Source: a bacterium
GTDB taxonomy: Bacteria > JACRDZ01 > JAJRWM01
Assembly: GCA_024276815.1 (NCBI GenBank)
Contig: JAJRWM010000073.1
Span: 1 to 33,052 of the forward strand
DNA length: 33,052 nt
Reading direction: 5' to 3'
A model generated the notes under the pieces. The model saw only the letters and a program-made list of their open reading frames with translations, made no database searches and had not been told where the DNA came from. Both the position numbers and the translations under genes were made by a program. Below, in pieces: positions 24,176 to 32,704 of this stretch. Each line of letters begins with the position of its first letter. The first letter of the stretch is position 1.

Positions 24176-25132
24176 CTAAAAAATTAAATATAAATAACCG
24201 AACAGCGGCGCGGAGATGAGGCTGATCGCGAAATAGAGCCAGAAGAGTTTTTTGCTGGTCATGGCCCCCAGGGCGGTCAGGGCCGGGATGCTGGTTACCG
24301 GGCCGGCAATTAAAAAGGCCAGGGCGGCTCCTTTATTCAGCCCCATATCCAGCAAACCGTGCAGGATTGGCACCGCGGCGACCTGGTGGGTTGGCAGCGG
24401 TATCCCCAGGATGGTCATCAGCAGGACTGAGCGCATTCCCGGTTTACCGGCCAGTTGGCTAACCAGGTTAATCGGCACCAGGGTGACTATGACCGCTTCG
24501 ATTATAGTGGCCAGCAAGATAAACTTGCCCATGAAGATGAACAACTCTTTGAAGCGGTCCCAGAAGAACTTTATCTTATTGTCGGCTAATTTGATGCCGC
24601 CGCTTTGACCTTTGTGCCGTAACGCCAGGGAAGTGCTGACGGCGCAGGGCTTCTCGGTCGCTGCCGTATGGCTGAACCCGGCGTCGCTGCCGGCGATAAT
24701 CTTTTTCCTGGTTAGATACAGGGTGATAAAGCCGGTCATTACGCCAAGGGTTAAGGCCGAACCCAGTTTCCAGAGCGCCAGTTCCCAGCCCAGGTCCGCG
24801 CCGGTCAGCCAGAGAGCGGCCGGACTCATTATGGGCGAGGTGATAAGCAGCGCCATTATGGGCGCGGCCGGGATACCCGCTTCGAACAGGGACAAGACTA
24901 CCGGCAGGATGCCGCAGGAGCACAGCGGACTGATTAACCCGGCCGCCGTGGCCAGAAAAATAGTCAGCACCTCGTTTTTACTGAAGACCCGGTACATCTT
25001 TTTATCCAGTTTGCAGGTCTTGATCAGGGCGGCCAAAGAGACTCCCAGCAGGAAGATCCAGCTAATATTCAGGAGATACTTGGCGGCGTAGCGAACTATC
25101 TCCCGGATAATCGGAACCAGGTTAGAAGGCAT
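24176..25132 (-). CDS. Permease, PF03773/ArsP-type
   Basis: MPSNLVPIIREIVRYAAKYLL...LISPLCSCGILPVVLSLFEAGIPAAPIMALLITSPIMSP; multiple TM segments. ORF-track N-terminal extension to 25402 lies in repeat DNA. Confidence 0.88.
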   Translation of the reverse strand: MPSNLVPIIREIVRYAAKYLLNISWIFLLGVSLAALIKTCKLDKKMYRVFSKNEVLTIFLATAAGLISPLCSCGILPVVLSLFEAGIPAAPIMALLITSPIMSPAALWLTGADLGWELALWKLGSALTLGVMTGFITLYLTRKKIIAGSDAGFSHTAATEKPCAVSTSLALRHKGQSGGIKLADNKIKFFWDRFKELFIFMGKFILLATIIEAVIVTLVPINLVSQLAGKPGMRSVLLMTILGIPLPTHQVAAVPILHGLLDMGLNKGAALAFLIAGPVTSIPALTALGAMTSKKLFWLYFAISLISAPLFGYLYLIF

Positions 25133-25407
25133 AATGATCAGAGACAAAAAGGAAAACCTCAGGGGACTCTTTTTCGAAAAAATACCGCCCCCTGAAACCC
25201 CCGCCAAAACTTTAAATGCTCTTCGGAGAAAACCTTGCATAAGTTTGAAATACACGCTAAAGCAAATTAAAACCTTATGTAAGGCGATGTGGGGGAACCT
25301 TTTTTTATTCCAAAAAAGAGTTCCCCCACGCCCCCTCCAAAAAATATAACTCTGCCTTCGGCAAAAATCTTGTATAAGCTTGAAATACGCTCTAAAAGGC
25401 ATAATGA
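25126..25407. repeat. Diverged tandem hairpin repeat flanked by AAGGCATAATGAT direct repeats
   Basis: AAGGCATAATGAT at 25126-25138 and 25395-25407; hairpin GTGGGGGAACCTTTTTTT...AAAAAAGAGTTCCCCCAC (25289-25329); CTTGCATAAGTTTGAAATACACGCTAAA / CTTGTATAAGCTTGAAATACGCTCTAAA inside. Confidence 0.65.
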
Positions 25408-26273
25408 TGGGGGCAGTCAGTAGTATACAGCCAGTGATATTTCTCGGTCATGCCCGGCGTCAGCCAGGGAGTGATCAGGAGCCGGGCCGTTTCAAAATCA
25501 ATCATACTCACCAACTTTTTGTCAGCGTTAATCGCCTGAATAATGGCTTTTTTACAGAGGTTCTCAATGTCCCAGCCGACAAAACCCTCGGTTAACTGAG
25601 CCAGCCTCCCGATGTTAACATCGGCGTCCAGGATCATGTCTTTGGTATAGATCTTCAACATTTCCAGCCGGTCGCCCGCTTCCGGCGGCGGTACGAATAC
25701 CTTGCGGTTAAAGCGGGTCTTTTCCTTGATCGCGGCGCCGTCAACACAGTCAAGACGGTAACTGCCGCCGACCAGCATCAGCCCCTCCAGCCCACCGGCG
25801 CTGTCGAGTTCCGCCAAAAACAGGTCAGCCAGCTCACGACTGCCCAGCACCGGCGGCTGCCCGCGGAAATTACCTTCTTCCCACTGGTAATCAGCGGCCG
25901 GACTCGGGCATAGCCATTCCACGTCAGAGATATACAAAACGCCGGGGCGGTTGGTTTTAGCGGCGGCGAAGGCGTTTTTCAACTCACGAGGTTTGCCCAG
26001 GATTTCCCGCCCGCTGACATACACGTAGTGAGCGCCGGCCGCCCTGGCCGCCGCTTCGGCGAGCATGGTAACACCGGTTCCCAGCGGGCCCCAGATCAAT
26101 ACTCCGGTGGGGATGGTCAATCCCATTTCCTGAACCTGGTTCGCTTTCTTCAAAGGTAGCGCGACCAACTCCTTGAGTTGCTCTTTCTGTTTTTCGTAAC
26201 CGCCGATATCATCCCACTCAAGCAGCGGGTCCCTGACCTCGTAATAGATACCTTCTCCCAATCGATTGTGCAT
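25392..26273 (-). CDS. CDC48/FtsH-like AAA protein with degenerate Walker A and B (pseudo-ATPase candidate)
   Basis: WDDIGGYEKQKEQLKELV; Walker A position GPLGTGVTML (Lys to Val); Walker B position VLYISDVEWL; RFNRKVFVPPPEAGDRLEMLKIYTKDM; GFVGWDIENLCKKA. Confidence 0.82.
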   Translation of the reverse strand: MHNRLGEGIYYEVRDPLLEWDDIGGYEKQKEQLKELVALPLKKANQVQEMGLTIPTGVLIWGPLGTGVTMLAEAAARAAGAHYVYVSGREILGKPRELKNAFAAAKTNRPGVLYISDVEWLCPSPAADYQWEEGNFRGQPPVLGSRELADLFLAELDSAGGLEGLMLVGGSYRLDCVDGAAIKEKTRFNRKVFVPPPEAGDRLEMLKIYTKDMILDADVNIGRLAQLTEGFVGWDIENLCKKAIIQAINADKKLVSMIDFETARLLITPWLTPGMTEKYHWLYTTDCPHHYAF

Positions 26274-26301: not shown

Positions 26302-27564
26302 TTATTTGTGTTGTTCCCACCACGACAACCATTTATGATAATCATCAGCGAAATCCCGCCGGGTTATTTTTTTCAGGGCCATGGACGCGCCCAGCCGGGC
26401 ATAGGAATTTTTATCCCGCAAGGACCTGATTAACGACTCGATAGCCGGTTTGCCAATTTTTATCAATTCGCTCCATTTGCCGGCGGCAACATAAAAAGTG
26501 ACCTGTTCTTCCTGGTTGCTTGGTTGCCAGCCGATTTTATCCAGGGCTTTGGCGGCGTTAACCCGAACCTCGGCATGTTTGTCTTTAAGTAAGCTCTTTA
26601 ACGCCTTTACCGCCGGTTTTCCGATACCGATGAGCTTGCCCCATTTTTCGGTGGCGATCAGGTAATTGACCTGCTCTTCCTGACTGGCCGGCTTCCAGCC
26701 GATTTTATCCAGCGCCCAGGCAGTTTCCCGGCGTAACGACCTCTTTTCATCAATATCCATAAAGACTTCGACCAGCGGCTCAACCGCCCGTTTATCCTCC
26801 AGGTCCGCCAGGGCCCTGGCCGCTCCCGCCTTGACCTCCTGGTCGGTGTTTTTCAGAGCCGAGATCAACTGTTCAACCGCCGGCTCGCCTATTTTTTTCA
26901 GCTTATCCCAATCCTTGGCCGCGATTAAGGAGAGGATCTTTTCCGGCAACTCCGTCGAGTCCTCATCAATTTCTTTCAAGGCCCAGGCAGCGCCGACCCG
27001 TACCCGGGATTCGTGGTCTTTCAGCGTGATAATCAGCGGCCCCACAGCCCGGGTATCCTTAAGCTCGCCCAGCGCCCTGGCAGCGCTCAGCCGAACTTCC
27101 CAATTCTCATCACGCAACGCTTCTATCAGCGGTTCCACGACCCTCCTGTCATTTATTTTCCCCAGCGTCTCAGCGGCGCTGACCCGTACGGAAAGGTTGT
27201 AATCCCCCAAAGCCTTGATTAATGGCTCGACCGCCGGCACGCCGATCCGGGCAATGGCCAGTTTGAGATGTTTTTGCAGCCTTGAATACTCACTTTTGAG
27301 GGCGCTGACCAGCGACTCGACCGCTTTGGGATCGTTGAGCTTGTCCAGCGCGTTTTCCGTTCTTCGCAAAACAGCGGCATAGCTGTCCTTAAGCGCCTCG
27401 ATTAACGGCCCGACCGCCCTGGGGTCCTTGAGCTGTCCCAGCGCCTGAGCCGCTTCGATTTGAATGGTAGAGTTTTTTTTGTATTTTAAGGCTTTGATCA
27501 AACCGGCGATGTCTTTATTCGCTTTTAACTTTTCAATGTTTGGAGTGGTAAGAAATATCGCCAT
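26302..27564 (-). CDS. HEAT-repeat (PBS-lyase type) protein
   Basis: 420 aa; repeats such as RVVEPLIEALRDENWEVRLSAARALGELKDTRAVGPLI. Confidence 0.92.
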   Translation of the reverse strand: MAIFLTTPNIEKLKANKDIAGLIKALKYKKNSTIQIEAAQALGQLKDPRAVGPLIEALKDSYAAVLRRTENALDKLNDPKAVESLVSALKSEYSRLQKHLKLAIARIGVPAVEPLIKALGDYNLSVRVSAAETLGKINDRRVVEPLIEALRDENWEVRLSAARALGELKDTRAVGPLIITLKDHESRVRVGAAWALKEIDEDSTELPEKILSLIAAKDWDKLKKIGEPAVEQLISALKNTDQEVKAGAARALADLEDKRAVEPLVEVFMDIDEKRSLRRETAWALDKIGWKPASQEEQVNYLIATEKWGKLIGIGKPAVKALKSLLKDKHAEVRVNAAKALDKIGWQPSNQEEQVTFYVAAGKWSELIKIGKPAIESLIRSLRDKNSYARLGASMALKKITRRDFADDYHKWLSWWEQHK

Positions 27565-27675: not shown

Positions 27676-28164
27676 TTAAATTGGGGACTCGTGATCCGCC
27701 CCCGAAACCATGTGTAACGCGTGGAGGATTATCGGGCTGACAACATGCCAATTCTCTTCAACGGCTTTAACAGAACCGGGGAAATTAATGATCAGGGACT
27801 TGCCGAGTAAACCGGCCATTCCCCTTGAAAGCATGGCGTTGGGAGTGATTCTCAGGTTTTGGACGCGCATCGCTTCCCCAATCCCGGGGATTTCTCTCTC
27901 AATGACGGCCCGGGTGGCTTACGGAGTCACGTCGCGGGGCGCCAGACCGGTGCCGCCGGTGGTCAGAACAAGGTCCGCTTTTTTCAGCAAAACCATATCA
28001 AGGAGCTGCGATTTGATCTTTTCAACATCATCGCTGACGACAGCCTCGCCAACGATCTCGACATCTAACGTACAGGCCAGTTCCCTGAGCCTGGGGCCGG
28101 ACAAGTCTTGCCGTTCGCCCCGGCTGCAACGGTCGCTGACGGTAATTATCGCGGTCCGAATCAC
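27676..28164 (-). pseudogene. mogA: MogA-family molybdopterin adenylyltransferase interrupted by in-frame TAA
   Basis: GTG start 28164: MIRTAIITVSDRCSRGERQDLSGPRL...[74 protein letters not shown]; TAA at 27921-27919, same frame on both sides. Confidence 0.88.
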
Positions 28165-28595
28165 CTGACGACCTCGATGTTATCACCCGGCTTGATCGTA
28201 CCGCCCCTGATAACCCGGGCGAAAATGCCTTCTCTGGGCATAACGCAGTCGCCGGCCTGCTCATAGATAGCGCAGCGGCTGTGACATTCCTTACCATGCT
28301 GGGTAATTTCCAATATTATATTTTCACCGATTTTAAGTTGGCTGTTGAGCGGCAAGGCCAATAAATCCAGTCCCCTGGTGGTTATATTCTCAGCGAAATT
28401 ACCGGCCGAGACAGAAAGTCCCTTCGCCTTCATCTTTTCAATACTTTCCAGGGCCAGCAGGCTTATCTGCCGATGCCATTTCCCGGCGTGGGCGTCGCTT
28501 TTGATACCATGATTCCCGATTAATTCAGCTTCCGCCACGTTTTCTTTAGGCACTCCCTTGTCACAACTGATAGAGACAGCGTAAACCTCAGCCAT
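28161..28595 (-). CDS. MOSC-domain protein
   Basis: 144 aa; AVSISCDKGVPKENV...HAGKWHRQISLLALESIEK...GNFAENITTRGLDL...GKECHSRCAIYEQAGDCVMPREGIFARVIRGG. Confidence 0.9.
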   Translation of the reverse strand: MAEVYAVSISCDKGVPKENVAEAELIGNHGIKSDAHAGKWHRQISLLALESIEKMKAKGLSVSAGNFAENITTRGLDLLALPLNSQLKIGENIILEITQHGKECHSRCAIYEQAGDCVMPREGIFARVIRGGTIKPGDNIEVVR

Positions 28596-28599
28596 TTAG

Positions 28600-29082
28600 T
28601 CATCCTTTCCTGATATAATCGCCGCTTTTTCCGCCGCTTTTTCGGACCAGCTTGATCTCGCCGATAACCATGTCCTTGTCAACCGCTTTCGCCATGTCAT
28701 AAATAGTCAAGGCGGCCGCGCTGACAGCGACCAGCGCTTCCATTTCCACGCCGGTCCGCTCGGCGGTCTTGACGACGGCTTTAATGTTAATCTCTGAATT
28801 GTCCCCGTCAGCGGTTATTTCAAGATCGACATATGTAATCGGCAGAGGATGACACAAAGGAATCAATTCGGCCGTCTTCTTGGCCGCCATGATCCCGGCC
28901 AGCTTCGCCGTGCTGATGACATCGCCTTTGGCGACCTTGTTTTCCTGGATCAACCGCAGCGTGCCGGCTCTCAAAAAAACCTTGCCGGCCGCTTCGGCGA
29001 CCCGCTGGCTGACAACCTTGCCGGAGACGTCCACCATTTTAATTTCGCCGCGCTCATCAACATGGCTGAAACGGGATTCCAT
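28600..29082 (-). CDS. moaC: Cyclic pyranopterin monophosphate synthase
   Basis: FSHVDERGEIKMVDVSGKVVSQRVAEA...KKTAELIPLCHPLPIT...VKTAERTGVEMEALVAVSAAALTIYDM. Confidence 0.97.
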   Translation of the reverse strand: MESRFSHVDERGEIKMVDVSGKVVSQRVAEAAGKVFLRAGTLRLIQENKVAKGDVISTAKLAGIMAAKKTAELIPLCHPLPITYVDLEITADGDNSEINIKAVVKTAERTGVEMEALVAVSAAALTIYDMAKAVDKDMVIGEIKLVRKSGGKSGDYIRKG

Positions 29083-30063
29083 CTATCCTCCGATTGCCGA
29101 CATGGTGTGCTGCCGTGATTTTGAAATTGAATAACCGGCCGGCTTGCTTTTCACCGCTTTGTCTATCAAATTTTCCACTTCGGCCATATTTTTTATCCGT
29201 AAAGGAGTTTTCAGGTCAAATTCCCGGTCGGAAAAAAGACAGGGGCGCAACCGGCCGACGCTGCTAAGACGTAAACGGTTACAGGTTTGGCAAAAAGCAT
29301 GACTCAGGGGATTGATGAAGCCAATCAGGCCGGCGGAAGAGTCGGGCCGGTAATAGACAGCCGGCGCGTTTTCCTGAACCAGAGCCGGGGACAGTTTCAG
29401 TTCCGATTTAATTATTTTCTTGACGTCATGACCGCTGACGCCGCCAAAACGGGCATAAAAATCCTGATCGCCCAGCGGCATATATTCGATAAAGCGCACC
29501 CATAACGGGTATTCAACCGCCAGCCGGGCGAAGTCCAGTATTTCATCCTCGTTATAGTTTTTGAAGATAATGACGTTAAGCCGCACGGGCTCGATTTTTT
29601 GCCCGAGCGCGCTGGTCACGCCCCGCCAGACCGAGTTGAAATCGCCGCCCCGGGATAAGTAGCGGTAACGGTCCGGTTTTAAGGTGTCGAGTGAAATATT
29701 GATCCGTGAAATACCGCTTCCGACCAGGTCATCAAGCAGGGGCTCCAGTAAAAGAGCATTGGTGGTAAGCGCCAGCCGTACGTCGTCGCCAAGCGCTTTC
29801 AGTTGCTTTATCAAAAAGGCAAGATTGGGCTTGATTAACGGTTCGCCCCCCGTCAGCCGCCATTTTCTTACCCCCTGACGATAAAACAACCCCGCCAGCT
29901 CGACAATTTCCTCATAACGCAAGACCTTATCATGAGCGACCTGTTTGACGCCTTCTTTGGGTAAACAGTAGCGGCAGCGCAAATTACAACGGTCGGTTAA
30001 GGAAATCCTCAGGTAATCAATCCGACGGTCGAAATTATCCGTTAATCCCGGTTCATTTTTCAT
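29083..30063 (-). CDS. moaA: GTP 3',8-cyclase
   Basis: Radical SAM DRCNLRCRYCLP; second cluster FCQTCNRLRLSSVGRLRPCLF; C-terminal GG. Confidence 0.97.
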   Translation of the reverse strand: MKNEPGLTDNFDRRIDYLRISLTDRCNLRCRYCLPKEGVKQVAHDKVLRYEEIVELAGLFYRQGVRKWRLTGGEPLIKPNLAFLIKQLKALGDDVRLALTTNALLLEPLLDDLVGSGISRINISLDTLKPDRYRYLSRGGDFNSVWRGVTSALGQKIEPVRLNVIIFKNYNEDEILDFARLAVEYPLWVRFIEYMPLGDQDFYARFGGVSGHDVKKIIKSELKLSPALVQENAPAVYYRPDSSAGLIGFINPLSHAFCQTCNRLRLSSVGRLRPCLFSDREFDLKTPLRIKNMAEVENLIDKAVKSKPAGYSISKSRQHTMSAIGG

Positions 30064-30886
30064 AGCTTAACTCTTCTATGTCTTTTGGCCAGCTAATACC
30101 TGTTTCGCCAAATTCGACAGTACCGGCAGAAACCTTGCCCCGTTCAATCTCGATAACAGTACCGCGAGCGGCGATTTTATCCAGTTGTGAATCCCCGCAA
30201 CGGTGCTGCCCCCGCAACGAAACCAATTTTTCCTGATAACGGAACAAACCGTTACGGACATTGGTGTGGCGGTGATGACCACAAAGAATTATATCATAAC
30301 CAATTTCAATAATTTCCCGCAGGGAGCGCCGGGTGTTGGCCCGCTCCAGGACCACCGCTTCAGCCCAGGTCAGTTCCCCGTCAAACACCCGCTGATAGGG
30401 AACGTAACCGACTCCGTGCGCGATCCCGATATTAATCCGCTCCTTCTCCGGTTCCCGTATTGGTAAACTGACCGAGGCGCCGTAAAAGTGGTCATCCTCG
30501 TGATAACTGTTTAAACAGCTCAGGGCGACCATACCGGACAAGGCTAACGATTTGCCGTCCGGTATGGTCGCCCCTTCTTCTTTGAAGATACCAACGACCT
30601 CATCCAACACCCGTTTTTTCCCGGGGCCGCTCTGACGATGGAACCTGTCCGGATCGTGATTGCCGGGAATGATAATCAATGGCGTACCGCTCTCGCGAAC
30701 CAGTATTCTCAGTTTATCGCTAATGATCTCCCAGGCTCGTAAAGAAGTCGGGCGTTTTTTACGGTCCAGCAAATCACCGGTGTGGATAATGAAATCCACC
30801 GCTTCGCTTTTAACGAAATCAACGATCAGTTTTTCCTCGGAGCCGTCGGCTAATTGCGTGTCTGAAACATGCAGGATTCTTAACAT
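30053..30886 (-). CDS. Calcineurin-like metallophosphoesterase (SbcD/YkuE-like)
   Basis: ILHVSDTQLADG, HTGDLLDRKK, IPGNHDPDRFH, IAHGVGY, CGHHRHTNV. Confidence 0.92.
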   Translation of the reverse strand: MLRILHVSDTQLADGSEEKLIVDFVKSEAVDFIIHTGDLLDRKKRPTSLRAWEIISDKLRILVRESGTPLIIIPGNHDPDRFHRQSGPGKKRVLDEVVGIFKEEGATIPDGKSLALSGMVALSCLNSYHEDDHFYGASVSLPIREPEKERINIGIAHGVGYVPYQRVFDGELTWAEAVVLERANTRRSLREIIEIGYDIILCGHHRHTNVRNGLFRYQEKLVSLRGQHRCGDSQLDKIAARGTVIEIERGKVSAGTVEFGETGISWPKDIEELSYEK

Positions 30887-31722
30887 CAGAAAATCTCCGG
30901 CAAAAAAACCAACCGGTCAACGCCCTCGTGGTTTGAGTACGGCTCCTGTTCCCGGTAGCGGGCGCATCCTCTAGCGATTAAGGGCTGGTTAAATTCCCGG
31001 TTATCCAGATAGATGATGTTGTCGCGGCAGTTCCTCTCACAGCCGGCGTAGTTTTGCCAGCCCGAATCCTTCTTATAGGCGGCGGCGCAATAGCGGGTGA
31101 CGCTGACGATACTGTATGGTAAATACAGGGAAAACCTGAATTTTGTTTCACTTTCCGAGCTTAGATCGAGGTTCTTTTCATAGTCCAGCTCAAGACGCCT
31201 GACACCCAGATTCCGGAGAAACTGTTTGATCCGGGGATGAGTCAGCGGTAGAGTCGAAAAATGTTTTTCTTCCGGTTCACTCAAAGACATCTTTTGCCCC
31301 AAACGCTTCTGCCGGCTCAACAAACGCCCGATGACCGGCGTCAGCTTTTTGAAGTTACTGATTAAAAACTCGAAAATCCCCCAGTCGTTAACCACCACTT
31401 CCCCGGCGGTTTCCAGTTCCGCGTAATATTCAATTGTTTTTTCTACCTGAGGCCGGGTTATTTCAAAGCAAAGCGGGGTTACCAGGATGAATTCAAGTCC
31501 CCCCCGCCGGCAAAGCTGGGAAGCCCTGGCGATATCGCCGAAACCGGGCAGCAGATGGGGACAATGTTCAACTCCCAGGTAGAGCCTCTGAAAACCGTTC
31601 GAACCCGGGGCGTCTTCCGCATGGTTGGCGGGAGGGGCTTGGGCGGAGCGGAATTCAGCCCAATAGCCGCCGAGCGAATCAAATTTATTGATATCATTGA
31701 GATAAACGGCGTATTCAGTCAT
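30886..31722 (-). CDS. U32-like protein, UbiV-like partner (divergent)
   Basis: Likely start MTEYAVYLNDINKF at 31722 (overlaps upstream stop at 31715); central LGVRRLELDYEKNLDL; Cys set CAAAY...AGCERNC...ARGCARY. Confidence 0.6.
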   Translation of the reverse strand: MTEYAVYLNDINKFDSLGGYWAEFRSAQAPPANHAEDAPGSNGFQRLYLGVEHCPHLLPGFGDIARASQLCRRGGLEFILVTPLCFEITRPQVEKTIEYYAELETAGEVVVNDWGIFEFLISNFKKLTPVIGRLLSRQKRLGQKMSLSEPEEKHFSTLPLTHPRIKQFLRNLGVRRLELDYEKNLDLSSESETKFRFSLYLPYSIVSVTRYCAAAYKKDSGWQNYAGCERNCRDNIIYLDNREFNQPLIARGCARYREQEPYSNHEGVDRLVFLPEIF

Positions 31723-32653
31723 GGCACGACTCGTAAGGATAATAACAAAGCCGGCGACTGCATGACCGGCCAAAAGCTTCCGCGTACCGCTCAGGTTCAT
31801 CCTCCGTTAAATCTTCACCCCTGTCCAGCGCGTCCAGCCCCTGTTTGACAAAACGGACGGCTTTCAGCTTGTTTTCCAATCTGGCGCCTCGTCCCACTAC
31901 TTTCAGTCCCCTGACGCCGGCGACCGATAACTTGCCGAGTACGCCCAGCCCGCAGGCGAGGTACCGCGGACAGTCCCGCCAGCTCAACTCGGCTTCCAGA
32001 ACCTCTTCGGCGGCTTTGGATTGGGGCAGGACCCGGAATTTTTGAACACAGGGCCAGCGGCGGTTCGGATCAAGATGGAAAAACCCACAGTAACCTTCGA
32101 TATTGACACATTTCCCTCCGAAGATAAAGACGTCAAACTCCATCCCCGGGTTAGTGGAGGTGACATAAGCAATTTCTTCCGTGGTCAGGCTGCGGGGCAG
32201 GACGATCCGGCAGACGCCAAAGCGCTGATAGAAAGCGACCGTGTTGGCGTTTAATGTCGGGGCCAGCGAACTGAGGTGCAGCCGCAGGTCCAGTTTCTCC
32301 TCTTGCAGTCTGAGCATCAATTCCAGGTCCGCCACTATGAAGGCGTTAATGCCAAGGGCGAGAAAATTATGGACATCAGCCAGGAGCAGGTCATATTGCT
32401 CAGGCGAATAAAAAGCCCGGTTCAAGGTGATGGCCAGTTGCTTACCGGCTCTTTGCAGGTGTGAAAACGCGGCGTTCAGTTCGTCGATGTCGGTAAAACT
32501 GGCGTCAATAAAAGCGCGGCGGTTGGGTCCGGCCAGTTCTGAATACCGTTCCCGCCATTGAGGGCTGACGAAGCCGGCGTAAAACCCGTCCGCGCCGGCT
32601 GCGAGCAAAGGTTCCACTTCGGCCGAATTATTCAAGGGCGCCAGAATGCGCAT
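31715..32653 (-). CDS. U32 family protein (UbiU/peptidase U32-like)
   Basis: MRILAPLNNSAEVEPLLAAGADGFYAGFVSPQWRERYSE...LHLSSLAPTLNANTVAFYQRFGVCRIVLPRSLTTEEIAYV...FGGKCVNIEGYCGFFHLDPNRRWPC. Confidence 0.85.
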   Translation of the reverse strand: MRILAPLNNSAEVEPLLAAGADGFYAGFVSPQWRERYSELAGPNRRAFIDASFTDIDELNAAFSHLQRAGKQLAITLNRAFYSPEQYDLLLADVHNFLALGINAFIVADLELMLRLQEEKLDLRLHLSSLAPTLNANTVAFYQRFGVCRIVLPRSLTTEEIAYVTSTNPGMEFDVFIFGGKCVNIEGYCGFFHLDPNRRWPCVQKFRVLPQSKAAEEVLEAELSWRDCPRYLACGLGVLGKLSVAGVRGLKVVGRGARLENKLKAVRFVKQGLDALDRGEDLTEDEPERYAEAFGRSCSRRLCYYPYESCHD

Positions 32654-32704
32654 ATAAAAGATTCCCCCTTTTCTATTACTGTTAAGTATAACCACGTTTA
32701 TACT

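Follow-up and report, generated by a model that had tools for sequence, protein, structure and literature searches.

Our analysis shows that the window, the whole stretch of 33,052 nucleotides of DNA studied here, encodes an AAA-type pseudoenzyme which keeps the AAA core and lid and in which six features are replaced alike in all or nearly all of 39 family members from at least five phyla, very small and little-known ones among them. The pseudoenzyme status is firm; the exact role is one that we infer. AAA proteins are defined by ATP-driven motion, yet this family has dropped every catalytic or threading feature alike and persists, so that it would be a clean natural example of an AAA fold serving as a scaffold. 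Rather than being broken, the gene probably encodes a scaffold that does not move. The interpretation we favour, with roughly even confidence and on comparative grounds, is that of a stand-alone AAA-fold pseudo-ATPase which acts independently of nucleotide, as scaffold or chaperone, in a cofactor or metal pathway linked to molybdenum or tungsten. Pseudo-AAA domains are already known; the novelty lies in a bacterial family of such proteins that stand alone and are accompanied by molybdenum-linked genes. We found neither an NCBIfam nor a Pfam family dedicated to the protein, and literature searches for the family or its gene set returned nothing matching, which is not proof that no description exists.

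25392..26273 (-): pseudo-AAA protein, 293 aa; open reading frame with Pfam AAA and AAA_lid_3 matches, member of a 39-member family, AlphaFold model with pLDDT 89

The open reading frame is intact, without internal stops, and begins at an ATG that is common to the family (start motif MHxxL). The protein matches Pfam AAA (1.5e-12) and AAA_lid_3 (1.2e-12) and, among PDB sequences, a VCP-like ATPase (3e-69) as well as Cdc48 and p97; its homology to AAA proteins is far above chance. The AlphaFold model (pLDDT 89.3, pTM 0.87) supports a retained AAA fold, with PAN, Cdc48 and p97 D2 as best fold matches, but its alignment was deepened with viral AAA proteins, which are active and bias the model towards that fold, a two-row alignment having given pLDDT 52. 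The C-terminal tail is poorly resolved in the model (pLDDT about 32). An alpha/beta core followed by a C-terminal lid is found alike by Pfam, PDB sequence, profile, model and fold matches. The original prediction had described a CDC48-like AAA protein with altered Walker A and Walker B motifs, and all of the peptides it quoted are present in the frame.

CDC48/p97 D2, the VCP-like ATPase and PAN share the core and lid and provide the best sequence, profile and fold matches. Unlike CDC48/p97 D2 and PAN, the pseudo-AAA protein is a single domain without N-domain or second ring, is altered in Walker A and B, sensor 1, one Arg finger, pore loop 1 and Gly-Ala, and carries an additional insert and a DCPHHYxF tail. 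It falls outside the CDC48 family TIGR01243, scoring 147.8 bits against a cut-off of 802.65 and lacking the two rings and N-domain. Its best matches, in the CDC48/PAN/FtsH clade, place it apart from the MoxR AAA+ chaperones, and no VWA protein was seen among the identified recurrent neighbours. The defence AAA proteins of PADLOC (IetA, TRIP13) were also rejected as relatives: they gave weak AAA-wide matches only (≤47 bits), and the recurrent neighbours include no defence partners. The elements that set the family apart are as follows.

26061..26093 (-): degenerate Walker A, WGPLGTGVTML, residues 61-71, with Val68 at the Lys position

25980..26015 (-): pore-loop-1 region, residues 87-98, SGREILGKPREL; Cdc48/FtsH have 5 more residues here

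25911..25937 (-): degenerate Walker B, LYISDVEWL, residues 113-121, with DE replaced by Ser116-Asp117

25848..25895 (-): family-specific insert, residues 127-142, ADYQWEEGNFRGQPPV, with Tyr129 and Trp131 invariant (39/39)

25701..25775 (-): degenerate sensor 1 and Arg-finger segment, residues 167-191, with Tyr172, Glu184 and Arg187

25572..25574 (-): Trp234, standing where the Gly-Ala-Asp adenine-contact motif has Ala; Trp in 37/38 readable members

25395..25418 (-): C-terminal tail DCPHHYAF, residues 286-293, family motif DCPH[HY]YxF

Active classic AAA ATPases carry a Walker A of the form GxxxxGK[ST], which none of the 39 members has: the Lys position is occupied by Ile in 33, Met in three, Val in two and Leu in one, and never by Lys, the Gly-rich loop being retained and the following Thr kept in 35/39. 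In Walker B the hhhhDE pattern is likewise missing, with Ser (38 members) or Thr (one) followed by an Asp that is invariant (39/39) and, as Asp117, occupies the position of the Walker B Glu. The codons in the window are GTT for V68 (26070-26072) and TCT for S116 (25926-25928), then GAC for D117. Whether the Val and Ser substitutions are conserved was a question raised by the original prediction, and the answer is mixed, a hydrophobic residue instead of Lys and the Ser being kept and Val itself being a minority choice beside the prevailing Ile. Its view that sequencing error is unlikely holds, because every one of the 39 homologues found carries the altered motifs. Homologues with an intact GKT or DE were looked for in the family, and all 39 members are without both.

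Four further losses had escaped the earlier reading of this gene. Pore loop 1, aromatic in active classic AAA ATPases, is deleted by 5 residues in every member except a paralogue in G002, whose loop is of another sequence. The sensor-1 Asn is replaced by Tyr in 38/39 members (Tyr172 in the window protein) and the first Arg finger by Glu or Asp (Glu184), which leaves the family without an SRH comprising the sensor-1 Asn and two Arg fingers; the second Arg finger (Arg187) is retained in 38/39. Finally, Gly-Ala has become Gly-Trp. The Ala of Gly-Ala-Asp contacts adenine in AAA structures, and from general knowledge of such structures Gly-Trp-Asp reads as a blocked adenine site. With these changes, the protein would be expected neither to hydrolyse ATP nor to thread polypeptides. 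That the P-loop still serves an unusual working ATPase, some other residue substituting for Lys, appears very improbable: the Gly-rich loop, its Thr and the invariant Asp117 would suit such an enzyme, but the joint loss of six distinct catalytic or mechanical features speaks against it.

An AAA domain without the Lys and Glu may still bind nucleotide, by analogy with the degenerate D1 domains of Pex1/Pex6, which still bind ATP (PMC10518020). Those domains resemble the pseudo-AAA protein in being AAA domains without hydrolysis that serve assembly (PMC10518020), but they stand in one chain with an active ring, whereas the bacterial protein consists entirely of a single degenerate domain and has operon partners of its own. 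We weighed a regulatory subunit in which bound nucleotide would play a structural or sensing part and which might lend its Arg finger to an active AAA protein such as FtsH or Cdc48. The retained second Arg finger and Walker Thr, together with the Pex1/Pex6 D1 precedent (PMC10518020), speak for this account; against it, the adenine-contact Ala is Trp in 37/38 members, the Lys is present in none, and in the window's genome FtsH is the sole other related AAA protein shown, no Cdc48 partner having been found there. We regard it as doubtful. A direct link to Cdc48 was also dismissed as not needed, since that genome shows only FtsH besides the pseudo-AAA protein.

Other residues are conserved in the family beyond the degenerate motifs. 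Trp120, Tyr129 and Trp131 are family-specific and occur in all 39 members, and DCPH[HY]YxF is present in 37/37 members with a tail, the two exceptions being a fragment cut at a contig end and the paralogue of G002 (L065). The DNA of the tail overlaps the start of fmdE at many loci; the tail is equally kept in genes not followed by fmdE, the window's among them, and the constraint therefore acts on the pseudo-AAA protein. The second copy in G002 (L065 1866-2699) is more diverged: it has Asn instead of Trp and a different pore-loop region, and has lost both KEK and the DCPHHYxF tail.

A profile search of 386 genomes separated the family clearly from other AAA proteins: scores ran from 370 to 514 bits for 11 members and no higher than about 163 bits for the AAA proteins ranked next, which were ordinary Cdc48/FtsH domains with GPPGTGKT and DE. 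Profile searches collected 39 members in all, a figure that includes the second copy in G002 and two sequences ending at contig ends. Members occur in 4/4 species of the window's own phylum, in 7/12 of the phylum of G247, in 2/3 of that of G279, in 2/2 of that of G151 and G289, and in 23/395 genomes sampled from the large phylum to which the 'Deltaproteobacteria' MAG J040 belongs. A tree built from the 17 members found first, together with Cdc48 D1, Cdc48 D2 and FtsH domains, groups the members in a single clade (support 100/100) whose stem measures 1.4 changes per site; the program flags long branches. The simplest account of these sequences would be a single ancient loss of the catalytic motifs. 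Fusion proteins were considered for four members whose open frames span about 495 aa and were rejected, the conserved start MHRKL being internal and the upstream part lying outside the family profile. A viral origin was likewise rejected: with the patterns used, no family member was found in IMG/VR.

Omega lies mostly between 0.05 and 0.15 in close pairs of members; it is higher in wider pairs, probably because synonymous sites are saturated, and those values are not relied upon. These ratios show a family under purifying selection. Gene decay was looked for in related species and is absent, all frames being full length except the two ending at contig ends. A pseudogene, a sequencing error or recent decay, for which nothing speaks besides the lost motifs themselves, is refuted by the full-length frames, by substitutions shared among 39 members across at least five phyla and by the low omega of close pairs, and we give it a negligible probability. 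Lost catalytic motifs, an intact fold and purifying selection together identify a pseudo-AAA protein. The original prediction of a maintained non-catalytic role therefore stands, from the absence of GKT or DE in the family and the absence of decay, with the low omega alongside; the scaffold or adaptor part of that prediction is inferential.

The genomic context suggests what such a scaffold might serve. The gene order in the window is U32a, U32b, metallophosphatase, MoaA, MoaC, MOSC, a broken mogA, a HEAT protein, the pseudo-AAA gene and ArsP_1, and the genes used below are these.

24176..25402 (-): ArsP_1-type permease, next gene downstream; Pfam ArsP_1 1e-46

28161-28595 (-): MOSC, upstream of the pseudo-AAA gene; Pfam

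28600-29082 (-): MoaC, upstream of the pseudo-AAA gene; identified from sequence and synteny

29083-30063 (-): MoaA, upstream of the pseudo-AAA gene; Pfam

30886-31800 (-): U32b of the UbiU/UbiV-like U32 pair; clusters with the U32b adjoining the gene in other phyla

31715-32695 (-): U32a of the same pair; same-type clustering; Pfam Peptidase_U32 3e-29

Across the 39 loci the partners recur, comprising FmdE-like, ArsP_1, the UbiU/UbiV-like U32 pair, envelope proteins and molybdenum-cofactor genes. Counted on the same strand within the fetched stretches, some of which end at contig ends so that the counts are lower bounds, an FmdE-like protein lies directly downstream at 26/39 loci (its open frame overlapping the pseudo-AAA gene in 22), and the ArsP_1 metal permease (window included) and a carboxypeptidase-regulatory-like protein (CpReg) are each present at 26/39. 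They are followed by a NosD/PQQ protein (24/39; a beta-helix protein that matches NosD), an OpuAC-like protein (18/39), FG-GAP/UnbV and DUF362 proteins (14/39 each), an Fe-S membrane protein (11/39), U32a and U32b (10/39 each, window included in both), ResB (6/39) and a tetrapyrrole methylase (5/39). No neighbour is universal. FmdE was rejected as an obligatory partner, several carriers being without it, and no FmdE of the associated type was found in the window's genome. A CobM/CbiF-like tetrapyrrole methylase adjoins the U32 pair in one family (L055 4931-7614, L056, L071-L073).

The commonest of these partners, the ArsP_1 permease and the envelope proteins (CpReg, NosD/PQQ, OpuAC, DUF362 and the Fe-S membrane protein), would fit a scaffold for Cu/Zn-type metal efflux or for periplasmic metalloprotein assembly without a direct link to molybdenum cofactor. 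The permease, whose homologous part starts about 90 residues into the listed frame, has weak matches to SaoE and the SO_0444 Cu/Zn efflux protein, and the match of the beta-helix protein to NosD points the same way. We consider this account rather unlikely, as the links through FmdE, MoaA-MoaC-MOSC and MoeA/MobB-U32b favour molybdenum. FmdE takes its name from molybdenum formylmethanofuran dehydrogenase operons, and MoaA-MoaC-MOSC precede the pseudo-AAA gene in three genomes (the window's, G001 and G003). Molybdenum genes stand beside the pseudo-AAA gene itself in one phylum only; elsewhere the link runs via U32b, which is UbiV-like. In a profile survey of 50 genomes U32b was present in 30/33 carriers versus 2/17 non-carriers (Fisher p = 4e-8), and within one family in 7/7 carriers versus 0/5 non-carriers, four of the latter five being less than 82% complete; neither comparison corrects for descent. 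Where U32b lies apart from the pseudo-AAA gene, MoeA adjoins it at 7/12 loci, with MobB too at four of those seven. FmdE, MoaA-MoaC-MOSC and MoeA/MobB-U32b are separate lines of evidence that all appear to point towards molybdenum.

A UbiV-like U32 protein without a Pfam match occurs beside MoeA in several phyla (L196 6216-8738, L203 6865-9387, L200, L202, L198, L201, L206), with MobB likewise present at four of these loci. It is possible that such loci represent an unknown step of molybdenum-cofactor metabolism. UbiU-UbiV form an O2-independent hydroxylase pair in which four-Cys patterns bind 4Fe-4S clusters (PMC6747719). U32a and U32b have comparable four-Cys patterns with somewhat different spacing, a likeness that concerns these partners and not the pseudo-AAA protein; unlike UbiU-UbiV, the pair here is linked to MoeA/MobB, and ubiquinone genes were not seen alongside.

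Under the favoured scaffold interpretation, FmdE, the U32 pair or both would be docked through the conserved insert and DCPHHYxF tail. This docking would probably take place on the inner side of the ArsP_1 permease and serve molybdenum- or tungsten-linked cofactor or metal handling. The mode of working could resemble that of the CoxD/NorQ metal-cluster assembly chaperones, minus ATP turnover. CoxD is a MoxR AAA+ chaperone that matures the Mo-Cu centre of CO dehydrogenase (PMC3471820), and NorQ is likewise a MoxR AAA+ chaperone of metal-centre assembly (PMC9976466). Both are, like the pseudo-AAA protein, AAA-type proteins encoded with cofactor or metal-handling genes; they differ from it in belonging to another AAA clade, being active ATPases and having VWA partners. 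More tentatively, we suggest that this undescribed stand-alone bacterial family may be the dedicated ATP-independent scaffold of an undescribed Mo/W-linked cofactor pathway built around the UbiU/UbiV-like hydroxylase pair, the FmdE-like protein and the ArsP_1 permease. The gene partners, with a UbiU/UbiV-like pair beside MoeA and MobB, hint at an uncharacterised cofactor or metal pathway that is directly testable.

Three further observations concern the DNA around the gene. Directly upstream lies a HEAT/PBS-lyase-like repeat protein of 420 aa (26302-27564, -), which was not found beside the pseudo-AAA gene in other genomes. Between it and MOSC, a mogA-like gene (27676-28164, -) is interrupted by a single in-frame TAA at 27919-27921 (DVTP*ATRAVIEREIPG) and is either a pseudogene or an assembly error. 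The interval between the pseudo-AAA gene and the permease (25123-25408) holds a 25-nt inverted repeat and direct repeats that lie 135 and 270 bases apart (41 nt at 83%; 16 nt at 94%), and looks like a duplicated intergenic element.
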